Shown: piece by piece, positions 7,857 through 19,531 of the stretch
How positions within the stretch are numbered: the stretch's first letter is position 1
How the letters are laid out: each line of letters starts with the position of its first letter
Assembly: GCF_001005215.1 (NCBI RefSeq)
Contig: NZ_LBNQ01000020.1
Span: 62,001-126,000, forward strand
Direction: 5' to 3'
DNA from: Lampropedia cohaerens
Lineage (GTDB): Bacteria > Pseudomonadota > Gammaproteobacteria > Burkholderiales > Burkholderiaceae_C
Length of the DNA: 64,000 nt
Notes under the pieces: model-generated
Seen by the model: only the letters and a program-made list of their open reading frames with translations
Databases searched by the model: none
Told to the model about the DNA's origin: nothing
Made by a program: the position numbers and the translations under genes

Positions 7857-8774
7857 TCAGGCAGGTACCTGCTGCGACAGTTGCTCCAGCAGCGACACCT
7901 GCGCAAGCACAGGAGGCGGCGCTACTTGGGCGCCCGCCACTATTTCGCGGATGTATTGCGCCGTGGCTCCGGCCGAAACATCGCTTGGCCATGAGGGCAT
8001 GGCAGAGATCCGCTCCTGTTGGGCCTGCTGCAGGCAACGATGTTGCCCGCCTATGTAGGCATCAATTTGCTGAAAGCGGCGTGCGTCTGCGACTGCTTCC
8101 CCCTCCAGACCACGCAGCAAAATGGCATCGGACTGCAAGTGCCGATACATGGCGTCCATAAAGACGCGGTACTCTGCATGTGTGTAGCTGCCGACGACGA
8201 TGGCGCGTCTCCTGCAGGGATTCATCAGCTTGACCAAGCTGTGGGCACTGTTGCGAAGCCCGATGGTGTAGCGCACACGCAGCAGCCAATGCAAACTGGG
8301 TGCCAGCACTTCAATCGGTAGAAAGTTGACACCCGTATCGGATACTTGCGCAATCGACGTCAATGGCGAAATTCCCAGTGCCGCCAATACCTGTGCCGAT
8401 GTTGTACGCCCCGATTCCTGCACGACGCCGTGCATGATGACGCGCACGCCGCGCTGCACCAGTAACAGAGCCAGCAATGGCGTAAGTACAGGGTATCTTC
8501 TCGCGCCGTTGTAGCAGGGGATGACCACGGTACTGCAGCCCGACGCGGAAGGCGCGATCAGCTCCATGCTGGCGCGGGCGGCGTCCATGAAGCCATGCAT
8601 CTCCGCGACGGTTTCGCCTTTTATGCGCATGGCAACGCAGAAAGCGCCGATTTCCAGGTCAGTGGCTTGGCGGTTTAAGACCTGTGCGAAAAGATCCGTC
8701 GCTTGTTCACGCGTGAGGGCTCTGGCTCCGTCCCTGCCGCGACCAATTTCCTTGATGTACTTTTGAATGCTCAT
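7857..8774 (-). CDS. ybiB: YbiB/TrpD2 family DNA-binding phosphoribosyltransferase-like protein
   Basis: 305-residue protein of the glycosyltransferase family 3 fold (anthranilate phosphoribosyltransferase-like). The N-terminal helical part is MSIQKYIKEIGRG...ALTREQA, and the fold core reads VVIPCYNGARRYPVLTPLLA. It lacks the clear GTGGD phosphoribosyl loop of TrpD; the corresponding position is the PCYNGAR stretch, which is typical of the TrpD2/YbiB branch. E. coli YbiB is known to bind nucleic acid and is LexA-regulated; that role here is inferred. The gene follows nirBD on the same strand after a 283-nt gap with no recognisable feature, so it may have its own promoter. Confidence 0.85.
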   Translation of the reverse strand: MSIQKYIKEIGRGRDGARALTREQATDLFAQVLNRQATDLEIGAFCVAMRIKGETVAEMHGFMDAARASMELIAPSASGCSTVVIPCYNGARRYPVLTPLLALLLVQRGVRVIMHGVVQESGRTTSAQVLAALGISPLTSIAQVSDTGVNFLPIEVLAPSLHWLLRVRYTIGLRNSAHSLVKLMNPCRRRAIVVGSYTHAEYRVFMDAMYRHLQSDAILLRGLEGEAVADARRFQQIDAYIGGQHRCLQQAQQERISAMPSWPSDVSAGATAQYIREIVAGAQVAPPPVLAQVSLLEQLSQQVPA

Positions 8775-9057
8775 GAATGGGGGAAGATGCGGTCAGGGCC
8801 GCCTTGATTCGTTGGGGTGCGCCGAATGCATGAAAGGCCAGTTTTGTTACTCCAGCAGCGCGGGTGTCGTGCTATCGATAGGTCCGGCCTTGCGCAAAAG
8901 CACGCACTATTTGCGCCTCTATGGCTGCACTAGCCAGCCGTCGGTGTGGGTCGCTGTGGGGCCACTTATCATGCGTCGTGTCGGAAAGTGCCGAAGGCGC
9001 AGACTGAAACATATCCGGTATGGCGTGTTGGGGTTATGGGCGCGTCGCGGACGGCGC

Positions 9058-9441
9058 TTATACGTTTATCCACACCACGCCGTCGCGTACTTCCACAGTG
9101 TATGTGCGTAGAGTGATTGCCTCATCTTCCATACACGTGCCGGTGCGCAGCTGGTAATGTTGTTTGTAGATCGGCGATGCCACCACCGGTTCGCCAGCGA
9201 TGTCGCCAAGGATGCCACGTGAGAGCACGTTGGCGCAGCTTTTGGGGTCGTAGTTGTCAATGGCGAACAGACGTCCGTCTGGGAGGTGGAAGATGGCGAT
9301 CTGACGGCCCTGCACCAGTGCGCACACGCCAGTGTTGAGCCAGATCTCGGCCAGCGGGCAAATCGGTTGCCAGCCGGCAGAGGCGGTGCCGGGATCGGGT
9401 GCTACGGTGTGAATGGGGGGTGTGGTGGTTACGGCGGTCAT
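9058..9441 (-). CDS. nirD: Nitrite reductase (NADH) small subunit NirD
   Basis: 127-residue Rieske-fold subunit of the cytoplasmic NADH-dependent siroheme nitrite reductase, which reduces nitrite to ammonium. Recognisable blocks are WQPICPLAEI, FAIDNYDP, ILGDIAGEPVVASPIYKQHY and the C-terminal VEVRDGVVWINV. As in other NirD proteins the Rieske iron-sulfur ligands are not conserved. It starts 4 nt after the nirB stop, so the two are co-transcribed and probably translationally coupled. The N-terminal 20 residues are an unconserved Thr/Pro-rich extension. Confidence 0.95.
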   Translation of the reverse strand: MTAVTTTPPIHTVAPDPGTASAGWQPICPLAEIWLNTGVCALVQGRQIAIFHLPDGRLFAIDNYDPKSCANVLSRGILGDIAGEPVVASPIYKQHYQLRTGTCMEDEAITLRTYTVEVRDGVVWINV

Positions 9442-9445
9442 GGCG

Positions 9446-12007
9446 TTACTTCGTCACAGCAGGTTGCGCGAGGGCAGTCGCATGTTTTTCCTCTGGTCTG
9501 GCAGGCCGGATCTGGCGGCGCTCGGGCACAAACCGGATGTTTTCATCCTGCGCGTCGCTATTGACGAAGGTGCGAAAGCGCTTGCGTGTTTCAGGATCGC
9601 GAATGGCGCTTTCCCATTCGTCTTGATAGGTGTTCACCACATGCTGCATCTGTGCTTCGAGTTCAGCGCACAGGCCCAGGCTGTCTTCGAGCAGCACAGC
9701 CTGTAAATACTCCAGACCGCCTTCGAGGTTGTCGCGCCAGGTGCTGGTGCGTTGCAGACGGTCGGCGGTGCGTATGTAGAACATCAGGAAGCGATCGATG
9801 AGTGCAATCAGTTGCGCCTTGCTCAGATCGCTGGCCAGTAGTTCGGCGTGGCGTGGCTTCATGCCGCCGTTGCCGCAGACGTAGAGATTCCAGCCTCTTT
9901 CGGTGGCAATGATGCCAACGTCCTTGCCTTGCGCTTCGGCGCATTCACGCGTGCAGCCGGAAACACCAAACTTGATCTTGTGCGGCGCACGCAGGCCCTT
10001 GTAGCGGTTCTCCAGCTCCACTGCCAGACCGACGCTGTCGTCCACGCCGTAGCGGCACCAGGTGGACCCCACGCAGCTTTTGACGGTGCGCAGCGACTTG
10101 CCGTAGGCGTGGCCGGACTCGAAGCCCGCCGCGATGAGTTCCTCCCAGATCAGGGGTAGCTGCTCGACGCGCGCGCCGAACATGTCCACCCGTGCGCCGC
10201 CGGTGATCTTGGTGTAGAGGCCGTACTTCTTCGCAATGCGGCCCACCGCGATCAGCCCATCGGGCGTGACCTCGCCGCCTGGCATGCGTGGCACGACCGA
10301 GTAGCTGCCATCTTTCTGAATGTTGCCGAGAAAGTAGTCGTTGGAGTCCTGCAGGCCGGCCAGCTCCTTTTTCAGCACGAATTCGTTCCAGCAGGAGGCA
10401 AAGATGCTGGCTGCAGTGGGTTTGCAGATGTCGCAGCCCAACCCTTTGCCGTGTTTGGCCAGCAGCTCCTCGAAGGTTTTGATTGCACCCACGCGGATGA
10501 GGTGAAACAGCTCCTGGCGCGAGTAGGCAAAGTGTTCGCACAAGTGGTTGTTGATGGCCAGGCCGCGCTTGGCCATTTCGGCCTTCATCACCTGGGTGAC
10601 CAGCGGCACGCAGCCGCCACAGCTGGTGCCTGCCTTGGTGCAGGCTTTGAGCGCGCCAATCGTGCAGGCGCCGTCCTGCACCGCCAGGACAATCTGGCCT
10701 TTGGTGACGTTGTTGCACGAGCACAGCACGGCGCTGTCTGGCAGCGCATTTGCGCCTAGGCCGGGCCTGGGCTTGCCATCACCAGCAGGTAGGATGAGCG
10801 ATTGCGGATCCTCGGGCAGCGCCATGGCGTTGCGCGCCATTTGCTGCAAGGTGCCGAACTCCTGCGCATCGCCCACCAGTACGGCACCGAGCAGGGTTTT
10901 GCCATCGGCGCTGACGACAATTTTCTTGTAGATGTTGCGCAGCTCATCAGTGAAGTGAAAGCTGCGGCAGCCAGCGGTGCTGCCGTGTGCATCGCCGACG
11001 CTGGCGACATCCACCCCCATCAGTTTGAGCTTGGTGGACAGGTCTGCACCTTGGAACGCGGCATCGGCCTGGCCACTGATATGGACTGCGGCTACGCGCG
11101 CCATGTCGTAGCCGGGCGCCACCAGTCCGTAGGTCTGCCCATGCCAGCTGGCACATTCCCCGATGGCGTAGATGGCGGGGTCGCTGCTGCGGCATTGGTC
11201 ATCAATGACGACGCCGCCACGCGGGCCGATGGCCAGCACGCATTGGCGCGCCAGTTCGTCACGGGGCCGGATGCCGGCGGAGAACACGATCATGTCCGCC
11301 TCCAGCCAGGTGTCATCGGCAAACACCATGCGGTGGCGTGCCGTCGCGCCATCGGTGATTTGCACGGTGTTGCGGCTGGTGTGGACCTGCAGGCCCAGTG
11401 CTTCGATCCTGCGGCGCAGCACCGCGCCGCCATTGGCATCCACCTGCACGGCCATCAGGCGCGGGGCAAATTCGACCACATGCGTCTGCAACCCCATGTC
11501 CCTGAGCGCCTTGGCACATTCCAGCCCCAGCAGGCCGCCGCCCACTACCACGCCACTGCGCGAGCGCGCGCCAGCCGCCTGCATGGCTTCGAGGTCTTCA
11601 ATGGTGCGATAGACCAGGCAATCGGCGCGGTCCTTGCCCGGCACGGCGGGGACGAAAGGCATGGAGCCGGTTGCCAGTACTAGCTTGTCGTAGTGCAGGG
11701 TCTGGCCATCTGCCAGCGCGACAGTGCGGCGGCGACGGTCGATCCGGATGCACCTGGCTTGAAGGCACAGCTCCAGGCCGGGGCGATCGTAGAAGCCAGG
11801 CTCTACCAGGGACAGCTGCTCGGCCGTGGTGCCACTGAAGAAGCGCGAAAGATGCACCCGGTCATAGGCGGGGCGCGGTTCCTCCCCCAGTACGGTGATA
11901 TGCAGGCCAGCATTGGGCAAGTCAGGGTGATGGCGCACCATCTCCTGCACAAAGTAGTGGCCGACCATGCCGTTGCCGATTACCAGGATTTTCGTTGTGT
12001 CGCTCAT
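9446..12007 (-). CDS. nirB: Nitrite reductase (NADH) large subunit NirB
   Basis: 853-residue assimilatory-type nitrite reductase large subunit. Domains in order: FAD/NAD(P) oxidoreductase (ILVIGNGMVGHYFVQEM; VVVGGGLLGLECAKALR), a BFD-like [2Fe-2S] domain with CxC and CGGC (SAVLCSCNNVTKGQI, GTSCGGC), the ferredoxin-like half, and the siroheme/[4Fe-4S] domain with STWCRYG and GVSGCTRECAEAQGKDVG. ATG 12007 is preceded by AGGAA and starts at the conserved FAD domain. The frame stays open a further 66 codons upstream, but that stretch is the regulatory leader. Expression is likely controlled by the sigma-54 promoter and the attenuator described upstream. Confidence 0.97.
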   Translation of the reverse strand: MSDTTKILVIGNGMVGHYFVQEMVRHHPDLPNAGLHITVLGEEPRPAYDRVHLSRFFSGTTAEQLSLVEPGFYDRPGLELCLQARCIRIDRRRRTVALADGQTLHYDKLVLATGSMPFVPAVPGKDRADCLVYRTIEDLEAMQAAGARSRSGVVVGGGLLGLECAKALRDMGLQTHVVEFAPRLMAVQVDANGGAVLRRRIEALGLQVHTSRNTVQITDGATARHRMVFADDTWLEADMIVFSAGIRPRDELARQCVLAIGPRGGVVIDDQCRSSDPAIYAIGECASWHGQTYGLVAPGYDMARVAAVHISGQADAAFQGADLSTKLKLMGVDVASVGDAHGSTAGCRSFHFTDELRNIYKKIVVSADGKTLLGAVLVGDAQEFGTLQQMARNAMALPEDPQSLILPAGDGKPRPGLGANALPDSAVLCSCNNVTKGQIVLAVQDGACTIGALKACTKAGTSCGGCVPLVTQVMKAEMAKRGLAINNHLCEHFAYSRQELFHLIRVGAIKTFEELLAKHGKGLGCDICKPTAASIFASCWNEFVLKKELAGLQDSNDYFLGNIQKDGSYSVVPRMPGGEVTPDGLIAVGRIAKKYGLYTKITGGARVDMFGARVEQLPLIWEELIAAGFESGHAYGKSLRTVKSCVGSTWCRYGVDDSVGLAVELENRYKGLRAPHKIKFGVSGCTRECAEAQGKDVGIIATERGWNLYVCGNGGMKPRHAELLASDLSKAQLIALIDRFLMFYIRTADRLQRTSTWRDNLEGGLEYLQAVLLEDSLGLCAELEAQMQHVVNTYQDEWESAIRDPETRKRFRTFVNSDAQDENIRFVPERRQIRPARPEEKHATALAQPAVTK

Positions 12008-12055
12008 CGTGATGGTTCCTGTGCATGAGGGCATTCGCGCAGGCGCAAATGCAAA

Positions 12056-12111
12056 ACGGCGTCCATTGCTGTCGGCCGCTGCGGTGCGGGGCCGGGAGCA
12101 ATGGACGCCGT
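12056..12111 (-). terminator. Intrinsic terminator in the nirB leader (attenuator)
   Basis: On the minus strand, a perfect 15-bp stem (arms 12097-12111 and 12056-12070) is capped by a nested GC stem and followed by TTTTGCATTT. It lies between the predicted start site (about 12193) and the nirB ATG (12007), 48 nt before the gene. A strong terminator here only makes sense if read-through is regulated. The neighbouring gene encodes a NasR-type ANTAR protein, whose known relative in Klebsiella relieves exactly such a leader terminator. Confidence 0.75.
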
Positions 12112-12120
12112 TGTCCTGAA

Positions 12121-12192
12121 GCGCTGCTGCGATGTGCGTCGCAGCAGCGCAAATGATTGGCTGTTGTGTCACTTGCCCAAACGGGCAGGTGA
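12121..12192 (-). promoter_or_regulatory. Two tandem stem-loops at the 5' end of the nirB leader
   Basis: Read on the minus strand: first, TCACCTGCCC paired with GGGCAAGTGA (12169-12192, one G-U pair, 4-nt loop). Then after 18 nt a perfect 12-bp stem with hexaloop CGCACA (12121-12150). The leader terminator follows 9 nt later. Two hairpins before a terminator is the arrangement recognised by ANTAR-domain antiterminators. The loops do not show the A at position 1 and G at position 4 described for many ANTAR targets, so direct binding is an inference. Confidence 0.6.
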
Positions 12193-12204
12193 TGCGGGCA
12201 GTCA

Positions 12205-12220
12205 AGCAAACTCTGTGCCG
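12205..12220 (-). promoter_or_regulatory. Sigma-54 (-24/-12) promoter of nirBD
   Basis: The minus strand reads CGGCAC-AGAGT-TTGCT, against the sigma-54 consensus TGGCAC-N5-TTGCW, with the invariant GG and GC ten bases apart. The predicted start is near 12193, exactly at the foot of the first leader stem-loop. This gives an independent positional check between promoter and leader. Confidence 0.68.
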
Positions 12221-12282
12221 GAATGTGGGAGGTGCCGTGGGCCAGGAACTGCAGAACGCTGCCGGTGCCTCGCCGCCATGCG

Positions 12283-12339
12283 TGAACTAAATTGGTGCAT
12301 TGCGGCGTCGGTGTAGGGCGGATGCACTACTTTGGTTGA
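12283..12339. promoter_or_regulatory. Pair of NtrC-like enhancer sites upstream of nirBD
   Basis: Two dyads resemble the NtrC consensus TGCACC-N5-GGTGCA: TGAACTAAATTGGTGCA at 12283-12299 (13 of 17 against TGCACCATAATGGTGCA) and TGCACTACTTTGGTTGA at 12323-12339 (11 of 17). Centres are 40 nt apart and lie about 98 and 138 nt upstream of the predicted start, the usual distance for NtrC enhancers. The second overlaps the nasR stop codon. Confidence 0.55.
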
Positions 12340-13601
12340 TGGGCGTTGGCCAACAATTGCTCGGCAACAGCGCTCAGCGGCATGCGTTGGTCCATCGCGG
12401 TGCGCTGCATCTGCTCGTAGGCGGCGGACTCTGTCAGCCCCGCATGACGCACCAGCAGCCACTTGGCCTGTTCGATGCGAATACGTTCCTGCTGTGCGCG
12501 GCGCGCCTGCAGCAGTGCCTGGTCTGCCTGCTGCAGGCGCGCCGCCTGGGCCTGCAGCAGATCCAGCAGCGAGCGCGACAGGCCTGCATTGATGCCGTCA
12601 TCCGGCAAGGAGGATTCCAGTGGGCGCCCCTGCAGGCTGTACAGCACGGCGGTGGGAGGCTCGGGCGTTTCGGGCCGACTGCTCGCAACCGGTGCTCTCC
12701 CGCGCAGGCGGGCGTGTTCGCGGCAGGTGGCCGACAGCACACCCGCAAGCCGGACTTCGAGGCTGTGCATGGCGTCCATGCGCGCGCTGCAGAGATGAAA
12801 CCAGGTGTCTGCCAGGCTGGGGTCGAGCGGCTGAGGTCCGCGCGGGGCGAGTACCAGCTGGCGCATGCGTTGCAGCGCGGTCTCGTCCTGGCGAAGCTCC
12901 GACCATGGCTGCAGCAGCGAGGTCGGCGCGTAATGCTGGAAGCCTTCGAAGCAACGCTCCTGGCCCTGCTGCAGGTTTTGCAGTGTGGCTTGCTGCAGTT
13001 TGTTGAAGCTGCCCATGGCAAAGCCACTCACGCCCAGCGCGCGTTCCTGGCCACACAGCTCTTTGCCTTGCATGAAATTCAGCAGGGCGACCATCATCCG
13101 TGTGATGTCGGGATCGGTCACACCATCCATGGCCTCGAGAACGGCATTGAGCAGGCTGGCAATGCTCTGGCTGAACAGCTGGAAGGCATGCGCGTCGTCG
13201 ATGTCGTGATGACGAACGCGTCTGCGCAGGGCGGGCATCTCGTCGAGCCTGTACAGTGCATGCGCGATCGCGTTCATCAGCCGTGCACTGCGCCAGATGC
13301 CCAGCGTCGCGAGGGCTGGTTGCTGGAGCATGGCGCGCCACTGTGCCTCGATTTGGCTGGCGCCTTCGCTGAGTTGATCCAATGCAGGCAGACGCTGGGC
13401 ATCGCTGCGGCATAGCAGCAAGTTGGAGTAGCCGCGCTCCTTTTGCAGGGCGTGGATGAGCTGCCCTGTCAGCACCACGAAGTCGCAGGTCTGCGCCAGC
13501 TCCGTAAGGGCCTGTTGCTCCTGCGCGCGTGCCGCGAGCATGTACTGGCGCGTCAGCGCGCCCGGACTGATTCTGTCGTGGGTCTTGTTCATGGCGTCCA
13601 A
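12327..13601 (-). CDS. nasR: Nitrate/nitrite-sensing ANTAR antiterminator, NasR type
   Basis: 424-residue regulator. The large N-terminal part (about residues 40-300) is an all-helical nitrate- and nitrite-sensing (NIT) domain with LIHALQKERGYSNLLLC near its start and a MQGKELCGQERALG segment. The C-terminal 60 residues form an ANTAR RNA-binding domain (IRIEQAKWLLVRHAGLTESA...YEQMQRTAMDQRMPLSAVA). Its Klebsiella relative binds nas leader RNA and prevents termination when nitrate or nitrite is present. The gene starts 16 nt after cobA on the same strand and ends about 130 nt before the nirBD start site, so the nirC-cobA-nasR transcript probably carries it and it would control its own operon. 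Confidence 0.88.
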   Translation of the reverse strand: MDAMNKTHDRISPGALTRQYMLAARAQEQQALTELAQTCDFVVLTGQLIHALQKERGYSNLLLCRSDAQRLPALDQLSEGASQIEAQWRAMLQQPALATLGIWRSARLMNAIAHALYRLDEMPALRRRVRHHDIDDAHAFQLFSQSIASLLNAVLEAMDGVTDPDITRMMVALLNFMQGKELCGQERALGVSGFAMGSFNKLQQATLQNLQQGQERCFEGFQHYAPTSLLQPWSELRQDETALQRMRQLVLAPRGPQPLDPSLADTWFHLCSARMDAMHSLEVRLAGVLSATCREHARLRGRAPVASSRPETPEPPTAVLYSLQGRPLESSLPDDGINAGLSRSLLDLLQAQAARLQQADQALLQARRAQQERIRIEQAKWLLVRHAGLTESAAYEQMQRTAMDQRMPLSAVAEQLLANAHQPK

Positions 13602-13617
13602 TCCGTGGCAGATCGCG

Positions 13618-14406
13618 TCATGCCTGCCGGCGTCGGCGAGGCGCGTGCGACTGCGCCGTGCGTGCTGCGGCTACAACGTCGCCGACGATCATGATGGCTG
13701 GGCTGCGCAGCCCAAAGGCGGTGGCATCGGCCTGCATCTGCGCGAGCGTGGTTCGGCATAGGCGCTGCTGCGGCAGGCTGGCATTCTCGATCAGTGCGAC
13801 AGGGGTGGCAGCTGCCATGCCGGCTGACAGCAGCTGCCTGCGCGTGTTGGCCAGCGTGGCGACGCCCATGTAGATGACCAGGGTTGTTCCGGCGCGCACC
13901 AGCGCCTGCCAGTCGGGACTGCGCCCGTCCTCGGTATGGGCGGTCAGGAACGTGGCTCCCAGCGTGATGCCGCGCATGGTCAGTGCGATGCCGCACCCTG
14001 TGGCCGCAGCCAGACCTGCCGTGATGCCATTGACGACGCCGCAGTCAATGCCGTGGCGGGCAAGGCGGGCCATTTCCTCGCCCGCTCGGCCAAATATGCA
14101 TGGGTCGCCGCCCTTGAGGCGCACCAATCGCACCCCCTGGCGCGCGTAGCGCAGCATCAGACGCTCAATGAATGCCTGTGGCGTTGAGCGACAGCCGCCG
14201 CGTTTGCCGACATGGATGATGCGGGCCTGGGGGCAGTGTTCAAGGACGCGTGGGTTGACCAGGTCGTCGGTCAGCACAACGTGGGCTGCGCGCAGGATGC
14301 GCACGGCCTTGAGGGTCAAGAGTTCGGGGTCGCCCGGGCCTGCGCCTACCAGCCAGACAGCGGGCTCCTGATCGTGGCCGGGCAGAGGTTTTGCGATATG
14401 GTGCAT
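13618..14406 (-). CDS. cobA: Uroporphyrinogen-III C-methyltransferase (siroheme synthesis)
   Basis: About 262-residue SUMT that methylates uroporphyrinogen III at C2 and C7 using SAM, giving precorrin-2, the precursor of the siroheme needed by NirB. Motifs: VWLVGAGPGDPELLTLKAVR at the N-terminus, VRLVRLKGGDPCIFGRAGEE, GITAGLAAATGCGIALTMRG, and VIYMGVATLA. It is a single-domain CobA form with no CysG dehydrogenase/ferrochelatase domain, so those steps must be encoded elsewhere. The start is uncertain: ATG 14406 is the first ATG, and an in-frame TTG at 14436 would add 10 residues. Neither has a clear Shine-Dalgarno sequence. Confidence 0.93.
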   Translation of the reverse strand: MHHIAKPLPGHDQEPAVWLVGAGPGDPELLTLKAVRILRAAHVVLTDDLVNPRVLEHCPQARIIHVGKRGGCRSTPQAFIERLMLRYARQGVRLVRLKGGDPCIFGRAGEEMARLARHGIDCGVVNGITAGLAAATGCGIALTMRGITLGATFLTAHTEDGRSPDWQALVRAGTTLVIYMGVATLANTRRQLLSAGMAAATPVALIENASLPQQRLCRTTLAQMQADATAFGLRSPAIMIVGDVVAAARTAQSHAPRRRRQA

Positions 14407-14457
14407 AGCATTATGTGGCAAGCACGAAGTGGGCAAGCGCGAGCAAGTGTTCAGCGG

Positions 14458-15273
14458 TCAGCCGAGCACATGCTTGCGGGGCGCGGTCTTCAGATGCGTC
14501 ACGTATAACGAAAGGCCTGTGATCGAGAGCCCTCCCACCAGGTTGCCTAGCACCACGGGAATCTCGTTCCAGATCAGATAGTCCATGATGGAAAAATTGC
14601 CACCCAGCATGATTCCTGACGGAAACAGGTACATGTTGACCACCGAGTGCTCGAACCCCATGCCGAAGAACAGCATGATGGGCATCCACATGGCGATGAC
14701 CTTGCCGCTGACGGTGGTGGAGATCATGGCGCTGACTACGCCGAGCGACACCATCCAGTTGCACAGCACGCCGCGAATGAAGATAGTGAACCATCCGCCG
14801 ACGCCATGCGCGGCATAGCCGAGCGTGCGGTTCTCGCCGATGTGCGATATGAACGCGCCCATGTCCCCGGGATCGCTGGTAAAGCCGTAGGTGTAGGTCA
14901 CAGCCATCATGAAGGCGACGGCCAGCGCGCCGGTGAAATTGCCGGCGAAGACAATTCCCCAGTGCTTGAGAATGGCCGTGACGGTGACGCCGGGACGCCG
15001 ATCCAGCCATGCCAACGGGGTAAGCATGAACACGCCCGTGAGCAAGTCAAAGCCCATCAGATACAACATGCAAAAACCGACCGGGAACAGTGCGGCGCCG
15101 AGGATCGGGATTCCCGTCTGCGCCGTCACGGTGATGGCAAACACGGCAGCGATGGCGAGTATCGCACCGGCCATCGCCGCACGGATGAAGGCATCGCGCG
15201 TGGCCATGTAGAGCTTCGACTCCCCGGCATCCACCATTTTGGTGACGAACTCGGCAGGGACGATGTAGGACAT
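14458..15273 (-). CDS. nirC: Formate/nitrite transporter family protein (NirC-like)
   Basis: 271-residue FNT-family channel with six predicted membrane helices, probably a pentamer conducting nitrite across the inner membrane. Family features: an N-terminal amphipathic part, the P-loop-like segments GFDLLTGVFMLTP and VLCNWMVSLGVV, AGNFTGALAVAFMM, and GFEHSVVNMYLFPSGIM. The start is well supported by AAAGGAAA just before ATG 15273. It is the first gene of nirC-cobA-nasR, which suggests import of nitrite for the assimilatory reductase next door. The central helix pair is conserved with both FocA and NirC, so substrate choice rests on context. Confidence 0.9.
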   Translation of the reverse strand: MSYIVPAEFVTKMVDAGESKLYMATRDAFIRAAMAGAILAIAAVFAITVTAQTGIPILGAALFPVGFCMLYLMGFDLLTGVFMLTPLAWLDRRPGVTVTAILKHWGIVFAGNFTGALAVAFMMAVTYTYGFTSDPGDMGAFISHIGENRTLGYAAHGVGGWFTIFIRGVLCNWMVSLGVVSAMISTTVSGKVIAMWMPIMLFFGMGFEHSVVNMYLFPSGIMLGGNFSIMDYLIWNEIPVVLGNLVGGLSITGLSLYVTHLKTAPRKHVLG

Positions 15274-15325
15274 GCAGGTTTCCTTTCGGACAACGAATTG
15301 GTGGAGGATGCAGCGTCAGATAGCA

Positions 15326-15363
15326 AAAGGCGCCATGAACCCCGCGGGGTTCATGGCGCCTTT
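15326..15363 (-). terminator. Perfect palindromic terminator between purH and nirC
   Basis: An 18-bp perfect inverted repeat with a 2-nt loop, beginning AAAGGCGCC and ending GGCGCCTTT, followed on the minus strand by TGCTATC. It is 53 nt before the nirC start and 133 nt after the purH stop. It could simply end purH. However, it also lies inside the leader of nirC as predicted from the sigma-54 site at 15417-15433, at nearly the same distance from the gene as the nirB attenuator (48 nt). Confidence 0.75.
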
Positions 15364-15416
15364 GCCAGTTGACGAATGAATTTGTTAGGACGGCCTCCGC
15401 GGCCGACATTTTTTCC

Positions 15417-15433
15417 AAGCAGGAAGCATGCCA
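15417..15433 (-). promoter_or_regulatory. Sigma-54 promoter of nirC-cobA-nasR
   Basis: The minus strand reads TGGCAT-GCTTC-CTGCT with the correct GG-N10-GC spacing. The predicted start is near 15407. The nascent RNA would begin with a small stem-loop (CGGCC-GCGGA-GGCCG, 15391-15405) and then meet the terminator at 15326-15363, repeating the layout of the nirB leader. Confidence 0.55.
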
Positions 15434-15460
15434 AGGAAAATCCGCCACTGCGCAGGTGAC

Positions 15461-15477
15461 TGCACCAGCGCAGTGCA
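15461..15477. promoter_or_regulatory. NtrC-like site upstream of nirC
   Basis: TGCACC-AGCGC-AGTGCA matches 11 of 12 positions in the two half-sites of the NtrC consensus. Its centre is about 62 nt upstream of the predicted nirC start site. The same bases lie within a longer inverted repeat (15446-15475), which would be untranscribed if the sigma-54 promoter is correct, so a DNA operator is the better reading than an RNA hairpin. Confidence 0.55.
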
Positions 15478-15496
15478 GCGTGCACGGATTGGGGGG

Positions 15497-17104
15497 TCAG
15501 TGCAGGAAGTGACGCACGCCCGAGAACACCATCACCACGCCGCGCTCGTTGGCTGCGTCGATGACTTCCTGATCGCGCACCGAGCCGCCGGGCTGGATGA
15601 CGCAGCTGGCGCCGGCATCGACGACCACGTCCAGGCCGTCACGGAAGGGAAAGAACGCGTCGCTGGCCACGGCCGTGCCCTGCAAGCTGAGCTTGGCGTG
15701 CTCGGCCTTGATGCTGGCGATGCGTGCCGAGTCGAGCCGGCTCATCTGGCCGGCGCCTACGCCCATGGTCATGCCGTTCTTGCAGAAGACGATGGCGTTG
15801 CTTTTGACGAACTTGGCCACCTTCCAGGCAAACAGCAGGTCATCGATTTGTTCGGCGGTGGGCTGACGTTCGGTCACGACCTTGAGGTCGCTGGCTTTGA
15901 GGACATGGTTGTCCGAGCTCTGCACCAGAATGCCCGAGCCCACGCGCTTGACCTCCTGGGCGTTGCGGCCGTTGTCCCATGGGCGTGGGCCGCCGGGCGG
16001 CAGGGCGATCTTGAGCAGGCGCACGTTGGCCTTGCTGCGGAAGACTTCCAGCGCTTCGGCGCTGAAGTCCGGTGCCATCAGCACTTCGACGAACTGCTTG
16101 GCCACGGCCTGCGCAGCGCGCCCGTCCAACGGCCGGTTGAAGGCGATGATGCCGCCGAAGGCGCTGGTCGGGTCGGTCTGGAAGGCCTTGGAGTAGGCCT
16201 CCAATGGATCGGCTCCGATGGCCACGCCGCAGGGATTGGCATGCTTGACGATGACGCAGGCGGGCACGTCGAAGCTCTTGACGCATTCCCAGGCGGCATC
16301 GGAATCGGCGATGTTGTTGTAGCTTAGGGCCTTGCCCTGCAACTGCTCGGCCGTCACCAGCGAGCCGGGTGCCGGTTGCAGGTCGCGGTAGAACGCCGCC
16401 TGCTGGTGTGGATTCTCGCCATAGCGCAGGTCCTGCAGCTTGACGAAGCTGCTGCTGAGCTGGGCTGGAAAGTCGCTACGTTCGGGCGCATAGCGCTCGT
16501 CGCTGGCACGGCTGTCATCGAAGGACAGGGCAGACAGGAAATTGCTGATGGCTGCGTCATACTGGGCGATGCGGTTGAAGGCAGCCACGGCCAGTTCAAA
16601 GCGCAGCCTGGTTGGCAGTGCGCCCTGCTGCAGCGCTGCGAGCACGGCCGCGTATTGCGAGGCATCGGTGACGACACCAACATCCTTCCAGTTCTTGGCG
16701 GCGCTGCGCACCATGGCGGGGCCGCCGATGTCGATGTTCTCGATGGCTTCGGCCAGCGTCACGTCAGGCTTGGCCACGGTAGCCTCGAACGGGTAGAGGT
16801 TGACCACCAGCAGATCGATGGTCTCGATGCCGTGCGCCTTGAGCGCTTCCATGTGGCTGGGCTGGTCACGCCGCGCCAGCAGTCCACCATGAATCTTGGG
16901 GTGCAGCGTCTTGACCCGCCCGTCGAGCATTTCGGGAAACTGGGTGACTTCGGCAACTTCCGTTGCCGGGATACCGGCTTCGGCCAGCAGTCTGGCGGTT
17001 CCGCCAGTGGAAAGAATGCGCACGCCATGCTGCGTGTGAAGGGCCCGGGCGAAGTCAACAATGCCGGTTTTGTCAGAGACGGAAATCAGAGCGGTCAGAG
17101 CCAT
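15497..17104 (-). CDS. purH: Bifunctional AICAR formyltransferase / IMP cyclohydrolase
   Basis: 535-residue enzyme for the last two steps of purine synthesis. The N-terminal MGS-like IMP cyclohydrolase domain ([36 protein letters not shown]) is followed by the larger AICAR transformylase domain ([44 protein letters not shown]). The C-terminus ends [15 protein letters not shown], as in other PurH. ATG 17104 gives the normal N-terminus; an in-frame extension upstream has no similarity. It precedes the nitrite island on the same strand, but the palindromic terminator probably separates them. Confidence 0.97.
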
Positions 17105-17245
17105 GGCTGAATGGGCGTTGGTGGGAAAACCCGCCATTGTAGGTTGTAGGGCAACTTCATCAGATGCGCGCTGCCGCGCAGCGGCCGTGGCAAACTGCAT
17201 CCTGGTCCGCGATGACCATGAACTGTTTTCGAGAGGATTGTTTCG

Positions 17246-17431
17246 ATGCGCTTGCTGCTTGCCATCTTTTTACCGTTTCTGGCGTTTTTCACCATTGGCC
17301 GTCCGATTGCGGGCATCGTCTGCCTGATTTTGCAGATTACGTTGATTGGCTGGCTGCCAGCTGCGTTGTGGGCGGTGTATGCGTTGAGCCAGTACAACAC
17401 CGACAAGAAGATTCGTTCTCTGGGCCAGTAA
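17246..17431 (+). CDS. Pmp3/YqaE family small membrane protein
   Basis: 61-residue hydrophobic peptide with two membrane-spanning segments and the UPF0057/Pmp3 pattern: [19 protein letters not shown], then [18 protein letters not shown]. The family comprises stress-related proteolipids that affect membrane potential in yeast; the bacterial function is unclear. GAGAGGA lies about 8 nt before the ATG. The gene is divergent from purH and convergent with the DAHP synthase gene. Confidence 0.88.
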
Positions 17432-17507
17432 GACTCACATCTGTGCCTCTCAGCTGGCGCGGCCTGTGCGATTGCCTGGTGTCGCACAGATGGCGCCTGG
17501 GCCGTTT

Positions 17508-18614
17508 TTAGCGTTGTGTGCCGCTGCGCTGGCGCCGCGTGCGCACCGCGTCAGCCAGTTGCTGCAGCACGGGGATCGTCTGCTCCATGCTGATGCAGGC
17601 ATCGGTGACTGACACGCCCCAGGCCAGCGGCTGCCCGGGCACGATGTCCTGTCGGCCCTCGTTGAGATGGCTCTCGATCATGAGGCCGGTGATGCGTGCA
17701 TCGCCGGCGGCAATCTGGCTGGCCACGTCCTGCGCAACATCGATCTGGCGCAAGTACTGCTTGTTGCTGTTGGCGTGCGAGACGTCGATCATGACCTGTT
17801 CGCGCAGGCCGGCTTTGCGCAGCAGGGCGCAGGCGGCATCGACATCGGCGGCGCTGTAATTGGGTTGCTTGCCACCGCGCAGGATGACGTGGCAGCGCTG
17901 GTTGCCGGTGGTCTCGAAGATGGCCGACTGCCCCATCTGCGTCATGCCGATGAAGGCGTGCGGCGCGCGCGCAGCCAGGATGGCATCGACTGCGACCTTG
18001 ACGCCGCCATCCGTGCCATTCTTGAAGCCGACCGGGCATGACAGGCCGCTGGCAAGCTGGCGGTGGCTCTGGCTTTCGGTTGTGCGCGCGCCGATCGCGC
18101 CCCAGCTGACCAGGTCGCTGATGAACTGCGGCGACAGCAGATCCAGAAACTCGGTGCCGACCGGCAGCCCCAGCGCAAGAATCTCCAGCAGCAGGGCGCG
18201 CGCCTTCTGCAGTCCGTCGTTGATGGCAAAGCTGCCGTCCATGTTTGGATCGTTGATGAAGCCCTTCCAGCCAACGGTGGTGCGCGGCTTCTCGAAGTAG
18301 ACGCGCATCACCACCAGCAGGTCCTTGGCCAGGGCGTCCGCCTGTTGTTTGAGCCGGGTGGCGTACTCGATGGCCTGCGCATGGTCGTGGATGGAGCAGG
18401 GGCCGACGACTACGATCAGCCGGTCATCACGGCCCTCCAGCACATTGGTCAATGCGCTGCGACTGGCTGCGACCAGCGCGTGCGTGGCTGCGGGCGCCGG
18501 CAACCACTCCCGCAACAGGGCAGGGGTGATCAACGGCCGGATGGACTTGATGTGCGTGTCTTCAACGGAGTTGCTGGCTTCGGGCGCTAGGCAAGAGGGT
18601 CTGGATGGGGTCAC
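17508..18614 (-). CDS. aroG: 3-deoxy-7-phosphoheptulonate synthase, class I AroF/G/H type
   Basis: DAHP synthase joining PEP and erythrose 4-phosphate, the first step of aromatic amino-acid synthesis. Family blocks: VVGPCSIHDHAQAIEYATRL, RVYFEKPRTTVGWKG, SCPVGFKNGTDGGVKVAVD, HVILRGGKQPNYSA and IDVSHANSNKQY. Which aromatic amino acid inhibits it cannot be told, so the AroG label is nominal. The start is uncertain: GTG 18614 gives 368 residues, close to the family length, but neither it nor ATG 18722 has a convincing ribosome site. It is divergent from the Crp/Fnr gene. Confidence 0.93.
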   Translation of the reverse strand: MTPSRPSCLAPEASNSVEDTHIKSIRPLITPALLREWLPAPAATHALVAASRSALTNVLEGRDDRLIVVVGPCSIHDHAQAIEYATRLKQQADALAKDLLVVMRVYFEKPRTTVGWKGFINDPNMDGSFAINDGLQKARALLLEILALGLPVGTEFLDLLSPQFISDLVSWGAIGARTTESQSHRQLASGLSCPVGFKNGTDGGVKVAVDAILAARAPHAFIGMTQMGQSAIFETTGNQRCHVILRGGKQPNYSAADVDAACALLRKAGLREQVMIDVSHANSNKQYLRQIDVAQDVASQIAAGDARITGLMIESHLNEGRQDIVPGQPLAWGVSVTDACISMEQTIPVLQQLADAVRTRRQRSGTQR

Positions 18615-18811
18615 GGTTGGAGTGCTGGCGTGCAGACAGAGAAATGGAACGACGGGCGCAATTATTCCAGCTTGTCTGACGCGCGTGCGCGTATGCCCTG
18701 ATGGTGCAGTGCAGGATGGCATGCCATCATGGCCAGTGGGCATCATTTGTAGTTCCAGCGTGCACTTGCAGCAGCGCCCTCTCCCCTCTCCAGTCACCGA
18801 AAAGACAGGCC

Positions 18812-19531
18812 ATGGACGAACCCATTCTTACCATGCACGAACGTGAAGCGATCAACGGTGGTCGCTGGTTCAATACCCTCTCTCCCACACTCCGACACGA
18901 CATTCTGCGATGTGCCAACGTCAGACGCTTCAAAGATGGTGCCCTGATCTGCGCGCGTGGCGACACGCCCGAGGAGTGGATTGCCTGCGCCAAGGGCGCA
19001 GTGCGGGTGAGCTCGACCTCGCTGACCGGCAAGCAGATCACCCTGACCTATGTGGAACCGGGCGTGTGGTTTGGCGATGTGGCGCTGCTCGATGGCGACA
19101 AGCGCACGCACGATGCCTATGCGCATGGCGACACGACGGTGCTGCAGGTCTCCAAGAGCGATTTCTTTCGCATCCTGGAGACGCACGTGGAGTTCTACCG
19201 CGCGATTTTGCGCCTGCATGCACGACGCATCCGGGGGCTCTTCGGGCTCGTGGAGGACCTCAACACGCTGCCCTTGCGCGCGCGGCTGGCCAAGCAACTG
19301 CTCCATCTCGCGCGCAGTTACGGCATTGCCGATCTGGCCGATGGCAGCCACATCCGCATTGGGCTGCAGCTGGCACAGGAGGAGCTGGCCCAGTTGCTGG
19401 GCGCTTCGCGCCAGCGCGTCAACCAGGAGCTCAAGGCGATGGAGCGCGAGGACATTCTGCGCATCGAGACGGGCGGGCTGGTGATCCGCGATCGCGACGC
19501 GTTGCTGCGGGTGACGCAGGCGGTGGATTAG
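18812..19531 (+). CDS. Crp/Fnr family transcriptional regulator
   Basis: 239-residue regulator with an N-terminal cyclic-nucleotide-binding-like beta-roll (FKDGALICARGDTPEEWIACAKGAVRV, VEPGVWFGDVALLDG) and a C-terminal winged helix-turn-helix of the Crp type (LAQEELAQLLGASRQRVNQE). The four-cysteine iron-sulfur pattern of true FNR is absent, and the cAMP-contact residues of CRP are not obvious, so the effector is unknown. ACAGG precedes ATG 18812. The next gene, an APH-like kinase, starts 58 nt downstream on the same strand, followed by an acyl-CoA dehydrogenase, which makes these the most likely targets. Confidence 0.88.
   Translation: MDEPILTMHEREAINGGRWFNTLSPTLRHDILRCANVRRFKDGALICARGDTPEEWIACAKGAVRVSSTSLTGKQITLTYVEPGVWFGDVALLDGDKRTHDAYAHGDTTVLQVSKSDFFRILETHVEFYRAILRLHARRIRGLFGLVEDLNTLPLRARLAKQLLHLARSYGIADLADGSHIRIGLQLAQEELAQLLGASRQRVNQELKAMEREDILRIETGGLVIRDRDALLRVTQAVD

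Follow-up and report, generated by a model that had tools for sequence, protein, structure and literature searches.

Upstream of the nirC-cobA-nasR genes of Lampropedia cohaerens, our analysis points, with good probability, to a sigma-54 promoter followed by an ANTAR-type attenuator that NasR would open, thereby reinforcing its own synthesis. The arrangement appears to belong to a NasR branch whose nasR genes lie within their own operon and whose leaders have apparently lost P1, one of the two hexaloop hairpins of known ANTAR leaders. An earlier, sequence-only reading of the window (the whole 64,000-nucleotide stretch of DNA analysed here) was right in outline and has more support than it had claimed; the novelty lies in a self-controlled variant that apparently lacks P1.

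Gene order and leader structure

The region is read on the minus strand in the order purH (stop at 15497), NtrC-like dyad, sigma-54 site, small hairpin, palindrome, nirC, cobA, nasR, nirB leader, and nirB, with the following genes and elements:

15436 to 15496, minus strand, hairpin just 3' of the purH stop, possibly purH's own terminator, overlapping the NtrC-like dyad (-27.3 kcal/mol, z -2.9)
15461 to 15477, no strand assigned, NtrC-like dyad TGCACTGCGCTGGTGCA (11 of 12 consensus positions)
15418 to 15433, minus strand, sigma-54 (-24/-12) site TGGCATGCTTCCTGCT of nirC-cobA-nasR (GG-N10-GC intact, 9 of 11 positions)
15391 to 15405, minus strand, small 5' hairpin CGGCC-GCGGA-GGCCG, in the P1 position, without an ANTAR hexaloop
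15354 to 15367, minus strand, predicted ANTAR P2 antiterminator mini-hairpin of nirC, UGGC-AAAGGC-GCCA (A1, G4, C:G closing)
15326 to 15363, minus strand, nirC attenuator terminator, a 38-nt perfect palindrome with a 17-bp stem, CGCG loop, and T tail
14458 to 15273, minus strand, nirC, formate/nitrite transporter (Pfam PF01226, Form_Nir_trans; ATG at 15273)
13618 to 14406, minus strand, cobA, tetrapyrrole methylase (Pfam PF00590, TP_methylase)
12327 to 13592, minus strand, nasR, NIT + ANTAR nitrate/nitrite-responsive antiterminator (Pfam PF08376 and PF03861)
12205 to 12220, minus strand, sigma-54 site CGGCACAGAGTTTGCT of nirB (10 of 11 positions)
12121 to 12150, minus strand, 12-bp hairpin of the nirB leader, loop CGCACA, in the P1 position, not A1/G4
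12103 to 12116, minus strand, predicted ANTAR P2 mini-hairpin of nirB, GGAC-AACGGC-GUCC
12055 to 12112, minus strand, nirB attenuator terminator
9446 to 12007, minus strand, nirB, nitrite reductase large subunit (Pfam domains), second predicted NasR target

The identity of purH was confirmed with Pfam, and the cobA product is one that we take to be of the uroporphyrinogen-III methyltransferase type, supplying siroheme. The nasR product is a NIT domain fused to an ANTAR domain (PF08376, 1.7e-43; PF03861, 1.4e-14) and matches PDB 4akk (phmmer E 7.9e-38). The genes nirC, cobA, and nasR are presumably cotranscribed. The genome also encodes rpoN, and an Rfam search over window positions 8000 to 19000 returned just one sub-threshold miRNA match.

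Known ANTAR leaders contain two hexaloop hairpins with A at position 1, G at position 4, and a preferred C:G closing pair, of which P2 overlaps the foot of the terminator (PMC3369931 and PMC7496416). Both terminators in the window carry a C-AANGGC-G mini-hairpin at the 5' foot, an element that the sequence-only reading had missed. Specifically, the loop and 3' stem of the nirC P2 constitute the 5' foot of the terminator, so that P2 and the terminator are mutually exclusive. The nirC terminator forms a 17-bp RNA hairpin with a CGCG tetraloop (-33.0 kcal/mol), and both leader folds are more stable than all 200 of their shuffles (z -5.2 at nirC and z -7.6 at nirB). Several details of the earlier reading can be adjusted on this basis: its perfect palindrome stands, with the stem corrected from 18 to 17 bp and the distance to nirC from 53 to 52 nt, which is, as it had held, nearly the distance at nirB (47 nt), and its small 5' hairpin is present at nirC, although the stability of the stretch that carries it does not clearly exceed chance (z about -1.0). 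Its proposal of the same promoter-attenuator design at nirC and nirB is supported, as a P2 hexaloop begins both terminators. A further C-ACCGCA-G hexaloop hairpin occupies the apex of the nirB terminator (12076 to 12089, minus strand), but few leaders of the branch described below have any downstream hexaloop of this kind (2/27).

The combination of P2 and terminator occurs twice in the window, directly before nirC and directly before nirB, versus one occurrence in 60 dinucleotide-shuffled windows, and a chance origin of P2 was rejected on these counts. A scan of NasR or nirC neighbourhoods, 723 kb in all, found the same combination 35 times; because P2 and the terminator were both search criteria, their pairing in these leaders is not independent evidence. 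Exact-pattern scans of the genome gave 27 matches (25 + 2, both strands, with nirC in both sets), among which the nirB and nirC stems have 16 and 18 pairs and the next best has 11. The 11-pair match was rejected as a further NasR target, since it falls within an ABC-transporter coding frame (by eye), and two 9-pair matches are also among the 27. Thus, no third convincing P2 leader was found by these scans, which, being restricted to exact patterns, would miss leaders with a mismatch or another spacing. Among eight nirC relatives at 67 to 73% identity (L028-L035), a P2 leader lies directly before nirC in two (L033, genome G056, and L034, genome G048) and in none of the other six; G056 and G048 both encode a NasR relative, and P1 is present in their nirC leaders. 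A relaxed scan gave one isolated match in L115, away from nirC.

Both promoter elements of the sequence-only reading, a near-perfect NtrC dyad at 15461 to 15477 and a sigma-54 match at 15417 to 15433, were recovered, the latter with the placement 15418 to 15433. The score of the dyad was equalled in 0 of 100 first-order shuffles of its own upstream region, and dyads with at most one mismatch number 35 genome-wide, versus 4 for a reversed control pattern. A leader scan of 71 sources yielded 65 unique P2 leaders; in 64, a sigma-54 site lies 38 to 93 nt 5' of P2. A best dyad of at least 10/12 lies upstream of 35 of these 64 leaders, versus 2.2% of first-order shuffles, with divergent leader pairs sharing one dyad; for the NasR branch that includes the window (clade A, below), the corresponding count is 24 of 27. 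An NtrC gate on nirC-cobA-nasR is a candidate that we grade as plausible, because the dyad lies near the promoter, ending just 27 bp from the -24 box, and overlaps the hairpin at 15436 to 15496, which 1 of 200 shuffles equalled in stability. Two perfect NtrC dyads occur elsewhere in the genome, one inside a recG-like frame and about 290 bp from the ABC substrate-binding gene that it precedes, the other within an oxidoreductase-like reading frame (both by eye); as both sit inside coding-like frames, they offer little support as a positive control for NtrC. Six Achromobacter loci (L073, L081, L083, L085, L089, and L097) have two back-to-back sigma-54/P2 leaders, one before nirB and one divergent, with a common NtrC-like dyad.

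Position of the leader in two NasR branches

A NasR tree of 71 rows (quick method, midpoint root, with flags on long branches, including that of the window row) contains two groups. Clade A, with 35 rows and an SH-aLRT of 99, unites the window, G128 and G277 (from other genera), Bordetella, Achromobacter, and kin, and clade B holds the other 36 rows. Every clade-A locus with a detected leader (19/19) has one 5' of nasR on the same strand, and all 41 clade-B leaders are 3' of nasR, both counts keeping duplicate loci (L092 and L197 are identical). The remaining nine clade-A leaders are either 3' of nasR (three) or on the other strand (six). The 16 clade-A loci without a leader all fall short of the operon start and so do not bear on position: 15 start inside or just before nirB, and at the sixteenth, L087 from Corticimicrobacter populi, the 5 kb upstream of cobA does not reach that far (by eye). 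The frames that precede cobA-nasR at L087 and run on into cobA resemble, on inspection by eye, those of an ABC transporter and a nitrate reductase, not nirB, suggesting that clade-A nasR also occurs at the end of a nitrate operon.

The consistent 5' same-strand position of the leader in 19/19 loci places nasR inside its own target operon, and self-control, as predicted from this arrangement, is a trait of clade A. The earlier suggestion that NasR may control its own operon gains further support from NasR being the only ANTAR protein found in the genome.

One match at L164 (6036), which has no sigma-54 site and is probably coding, judging by the neighbouring frame, was left out of the 64- and 37-leader sets; it is still counted in the clade-B totals of 38 (for P1) and 41 (for position), not in that of 40. 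A congener, G003 (L123), has a clade-B NasR with the leader 3' of nasR and, further on, a nirB at 87% identity, with no nirC found; the genus therefore has two different NasR systems. On inspection by eye, an unpaired, ACAAC-type stretch with GC after it recurs in many nirB leaders of the Alcaligenaceae (L068-L097), where it is placed between the 5' hairpin and P2.

Apparent loss of P1 and changes in the ANTAR domain

Clade A also differs in the leader itself. A canonical P1 within 60 nt was found in 0/27 clade-A leaders, those of the window included, versus 34/38 in clade B. With U:G closing allowed, a sigma-54 site required, and duplicates kept, the counts were 0/28 and 36/40. When any closing pair was accepted, P1 appeared in 4/27 clade-A leaders (4.7 expected by chance), versus 34/37 in clade B (5.5 expected). 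Other forms of P1 stayed near expectation in clade A, whether as loops of 5 to 8 nt (15/27 versus 13.9) or as 2-bp stems (9/27 versus 10.2), and a second hexaloop downstream, inside the terminator, was seen in 2/27 versus 0.7 expected. Where P1 is present in clade B, the P1-P2 linker spans 2 to 59 nt and is at most 30 nt in 23 of 34 leaders. These counts are non-independent because the species are related, and the absence of P1 amounts to a single change at the level of the clade, to which L096 and L098 are to be added; L106 and L107 are borderline.

The ANTAR domain has changed in the same branch (residues are numbered as in Klebsiella oxytoca NasR; the EutV mapping uses chain numbering offset from that of the EutV paper). 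R366 is retained in 0/35 clade-A proteins (Q in 34, L in 1; Q396 in the window) and in 32/36 clade-B proteins. N373 is G or R throughout clade A (35/35), with R403 in the window, as at EutV R175, and N in 27/36 of clade B. R375, the equivalent of EutV R177, is S, P, T, or A in all 35 (P405 in the window) and R or K in 35/36 of clade B. The substitutions R366A and N373A each abolished RNA binding by K. oxytoca NasR (PMC7496416). Other positions have been kept: K347, E358, and M370 (EutV K149, E160, and M172) are invariant in clade A, and R340 is retained in 21 of the 35 proteins, including that of the window, and lost in 14, six of them with K. The NIT-side partners Q194, D201, and Q204 are altered in most clade-A proteins. 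Taken together, the residue and leader changes indicate a joint shift, within one branch, of the RNA contacts, the autoinhibitory interface, and the RNA target. Loss of R366 and loss of P1 are not strictly linked, however: L120 has Q366 with P1, L098 has Q366 without P1, and L106 and L107 have R366 without P1 under the rule applied here.

Relation to known ANTAR systems

The closest comparison is with NasR and nasF of K. oxytoca, which share with the window a NIT + ANTAR protein, an A1/G4 hexaloop formed by the 5' foot of the terminator, and nitrogen-oxyanion genes as targets. The K. oxytoca nasF leader has both P1 and P2, whereas no P1 was found in the window leaders. The window further differs in that nasR is inside the controlled operon, nirC and nirB are the targets, and R366, N373, and R375 are replaced. 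EutV of Enterococcus faecalis resembles the window system in its ANTAR domain, in the P2 hexaloop embedded in the terminator, and in the invariance within clade A of the equivalents of the G4-contacting K149 and E160 and of the plug M172. The window R403 matches EutV R175, although this position is G in 26 of the 35 clade-A proteins, and the R168 and R177 equivalents are replaced (Q396 and P405 in the window). EutV differs, too, in being a phosphorylated response regulator and in needing P1 in vivo for antitermination (PMC8934654).

The clade-B NasR leaders (Variovorax, Thioalkalivibrio, the congener G003, and others) share the AANGGC hexaloops, the sigma-54 promoter, and a long terminator, and differ in possessing P1 (in all but four of 38) and in their position relative to nasR. 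NasS-NasT leaders, as in Azotobacter and Paracoccus, also control nitrate genes by ANTAR antitermination, but with a two-protein sensor; this comparison is by description rather than by sequence.

In the EutV-RNA structure study, a single hexaloop is the minimal motif and the dimer binds only one, with the need for both left open (PMC8934654). Clade A is a natural branch with, seemingly, the antiterminator hexaloop only and a changed ANTAR domain, and it makes the two-hexaloop requirement testable. It is, further, a natural case of an antiterminator protein apparently controlling its own gene, and it would widen the predicted reach of NasR beyond nitrate assimilation, to the uptake of nitrite and the supply of siroheme. 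Among the papers listed in searches of the open-licence literature, none was seen to describe ANTAR leaders lacking P1 or a NasR that controls itself.

Proposed mechanism and alternative explanations

The following sequence of events can be proposed. Under nitrogen limitation, NtrC and sigma-54 would start transcription near position 15407. Without nitrate or nitrite, the terminator would halt it 52 nt before nirC; with either present, NasR would bind P2 in the nascent RNA, no terminator would form, and nirC-cobA-nasR would be made, while nirB would be opened alongside through its own leader. Because nasR belongs to the opened operon, NasR would raise its own supply, a positive feedback that could provide the higher NasR level needed by a P2-only leader. 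Such a need can be gauged from K. oxytoca NasR, whose affinity is about 12-fold weaker for P2 alone than for P1P2 (approximately 12 uM versus 1 uM; PMC7496416).

How clade-A NasR recognizes its leader is less certain. Our tentative reading, held with a little less than even confidence, is that it antiterminates with a single hexaloop (P2 only), the supposedly obligatory recruitment hairpin P1 having been dropped and the ANTAR-RNA and NIT-ANTAR contacts remodelled, with the weak binding offset by the position of nasR in its own operon. If so, nitrite would switch on nirC-cobA-nasR and nirB in a self-reinforcing and possibly bistable manner.

A more doubtful explanation keeps NasR control and two-hairpin binding, with a non-canonical P1 in which the 5' hairpin recruits NasR by shape rather than through an A1/G4 hexaloop. 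Some hairpin of at least 4 pairs does occur in the 62 nt before P2 in 27/27 clade-A leaders, the RNA contacts of the ANTAR domains are altered, and the stretch before P2 at the window nirB is strongly folded (z -5.3). However, loop length (3 to 10 nt), loop sequence, and distance to P2 (2 to 23 nt) all vary freely among these hairpins, and the pre-P2 stretch has a mean z of just -1.4, with the nirC stretch of the window lower still in stability.

It is improbable that the attenuator is vestigial, with clade-A NasR no longer binding P2 and NtrC alone in control. The universal loss of R366, N373, and R375 and the eroded NIT-ANTAR pairs would fit such a decay; yet P2 and a long terminator persist upstream in 19 clade-A loci, which are all those covering the operon start, and K347, E358, and M370 have not changed. 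Further, a strong terminator that is never opened would shut off the nitrite genes and should, for that reason, have been lost.

The alternative raised by the sequence-only reading, that the nirC palindrome is only the purH terminator and that nirC depends on read-through or an unseen promoter, is very improbable. In its favour, no other terminator-like hairpin between purH and nirC is as strong, and purH transcripts reaching the palindrome would stop there too. However, the palindrome is absent from 8/8 congeners with purH (longest common run 6 to 11 nt), 4 of which have other terminator-like hairpins within 350 nt, a near-identical palindrome precedes nirC in G128 and G277 behind purD, the sigma-54 site is located between purH and the palindrome, and a separate hairpin (15436 to 15496) directly follows the purH stop. 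Within the genus, purH is present in 9/10 genomes (this one included), and nirC was found in 0/9 congeners searched (two of them only 77 to 80% complete).

The attenuator reading also fits what is seen in G128 and G277, whose nirC leaders carry GGCAAAGGCGCCATGAACC...GGTTCATGGCGCCTTT and GGCAAAGGCGCCATGGACC...GGTTCATGGCGCCTTT, with a sigma-54 site 48 nt 5' of P2. The gene order in both, after purD, is nirC, a phosphatase-kinase gene, cobA, nasR, and nirB. The gene between nirC and cobA is a fused PP2C phosphatase and Ser/Thr kinase (L154:7784-9532 and L155:8087-9922, both on the minus strand), identified by Pfam in G128 and by a similar reading frame in G277, and several Achromobacter loci have a gene-sized gap at the same position.
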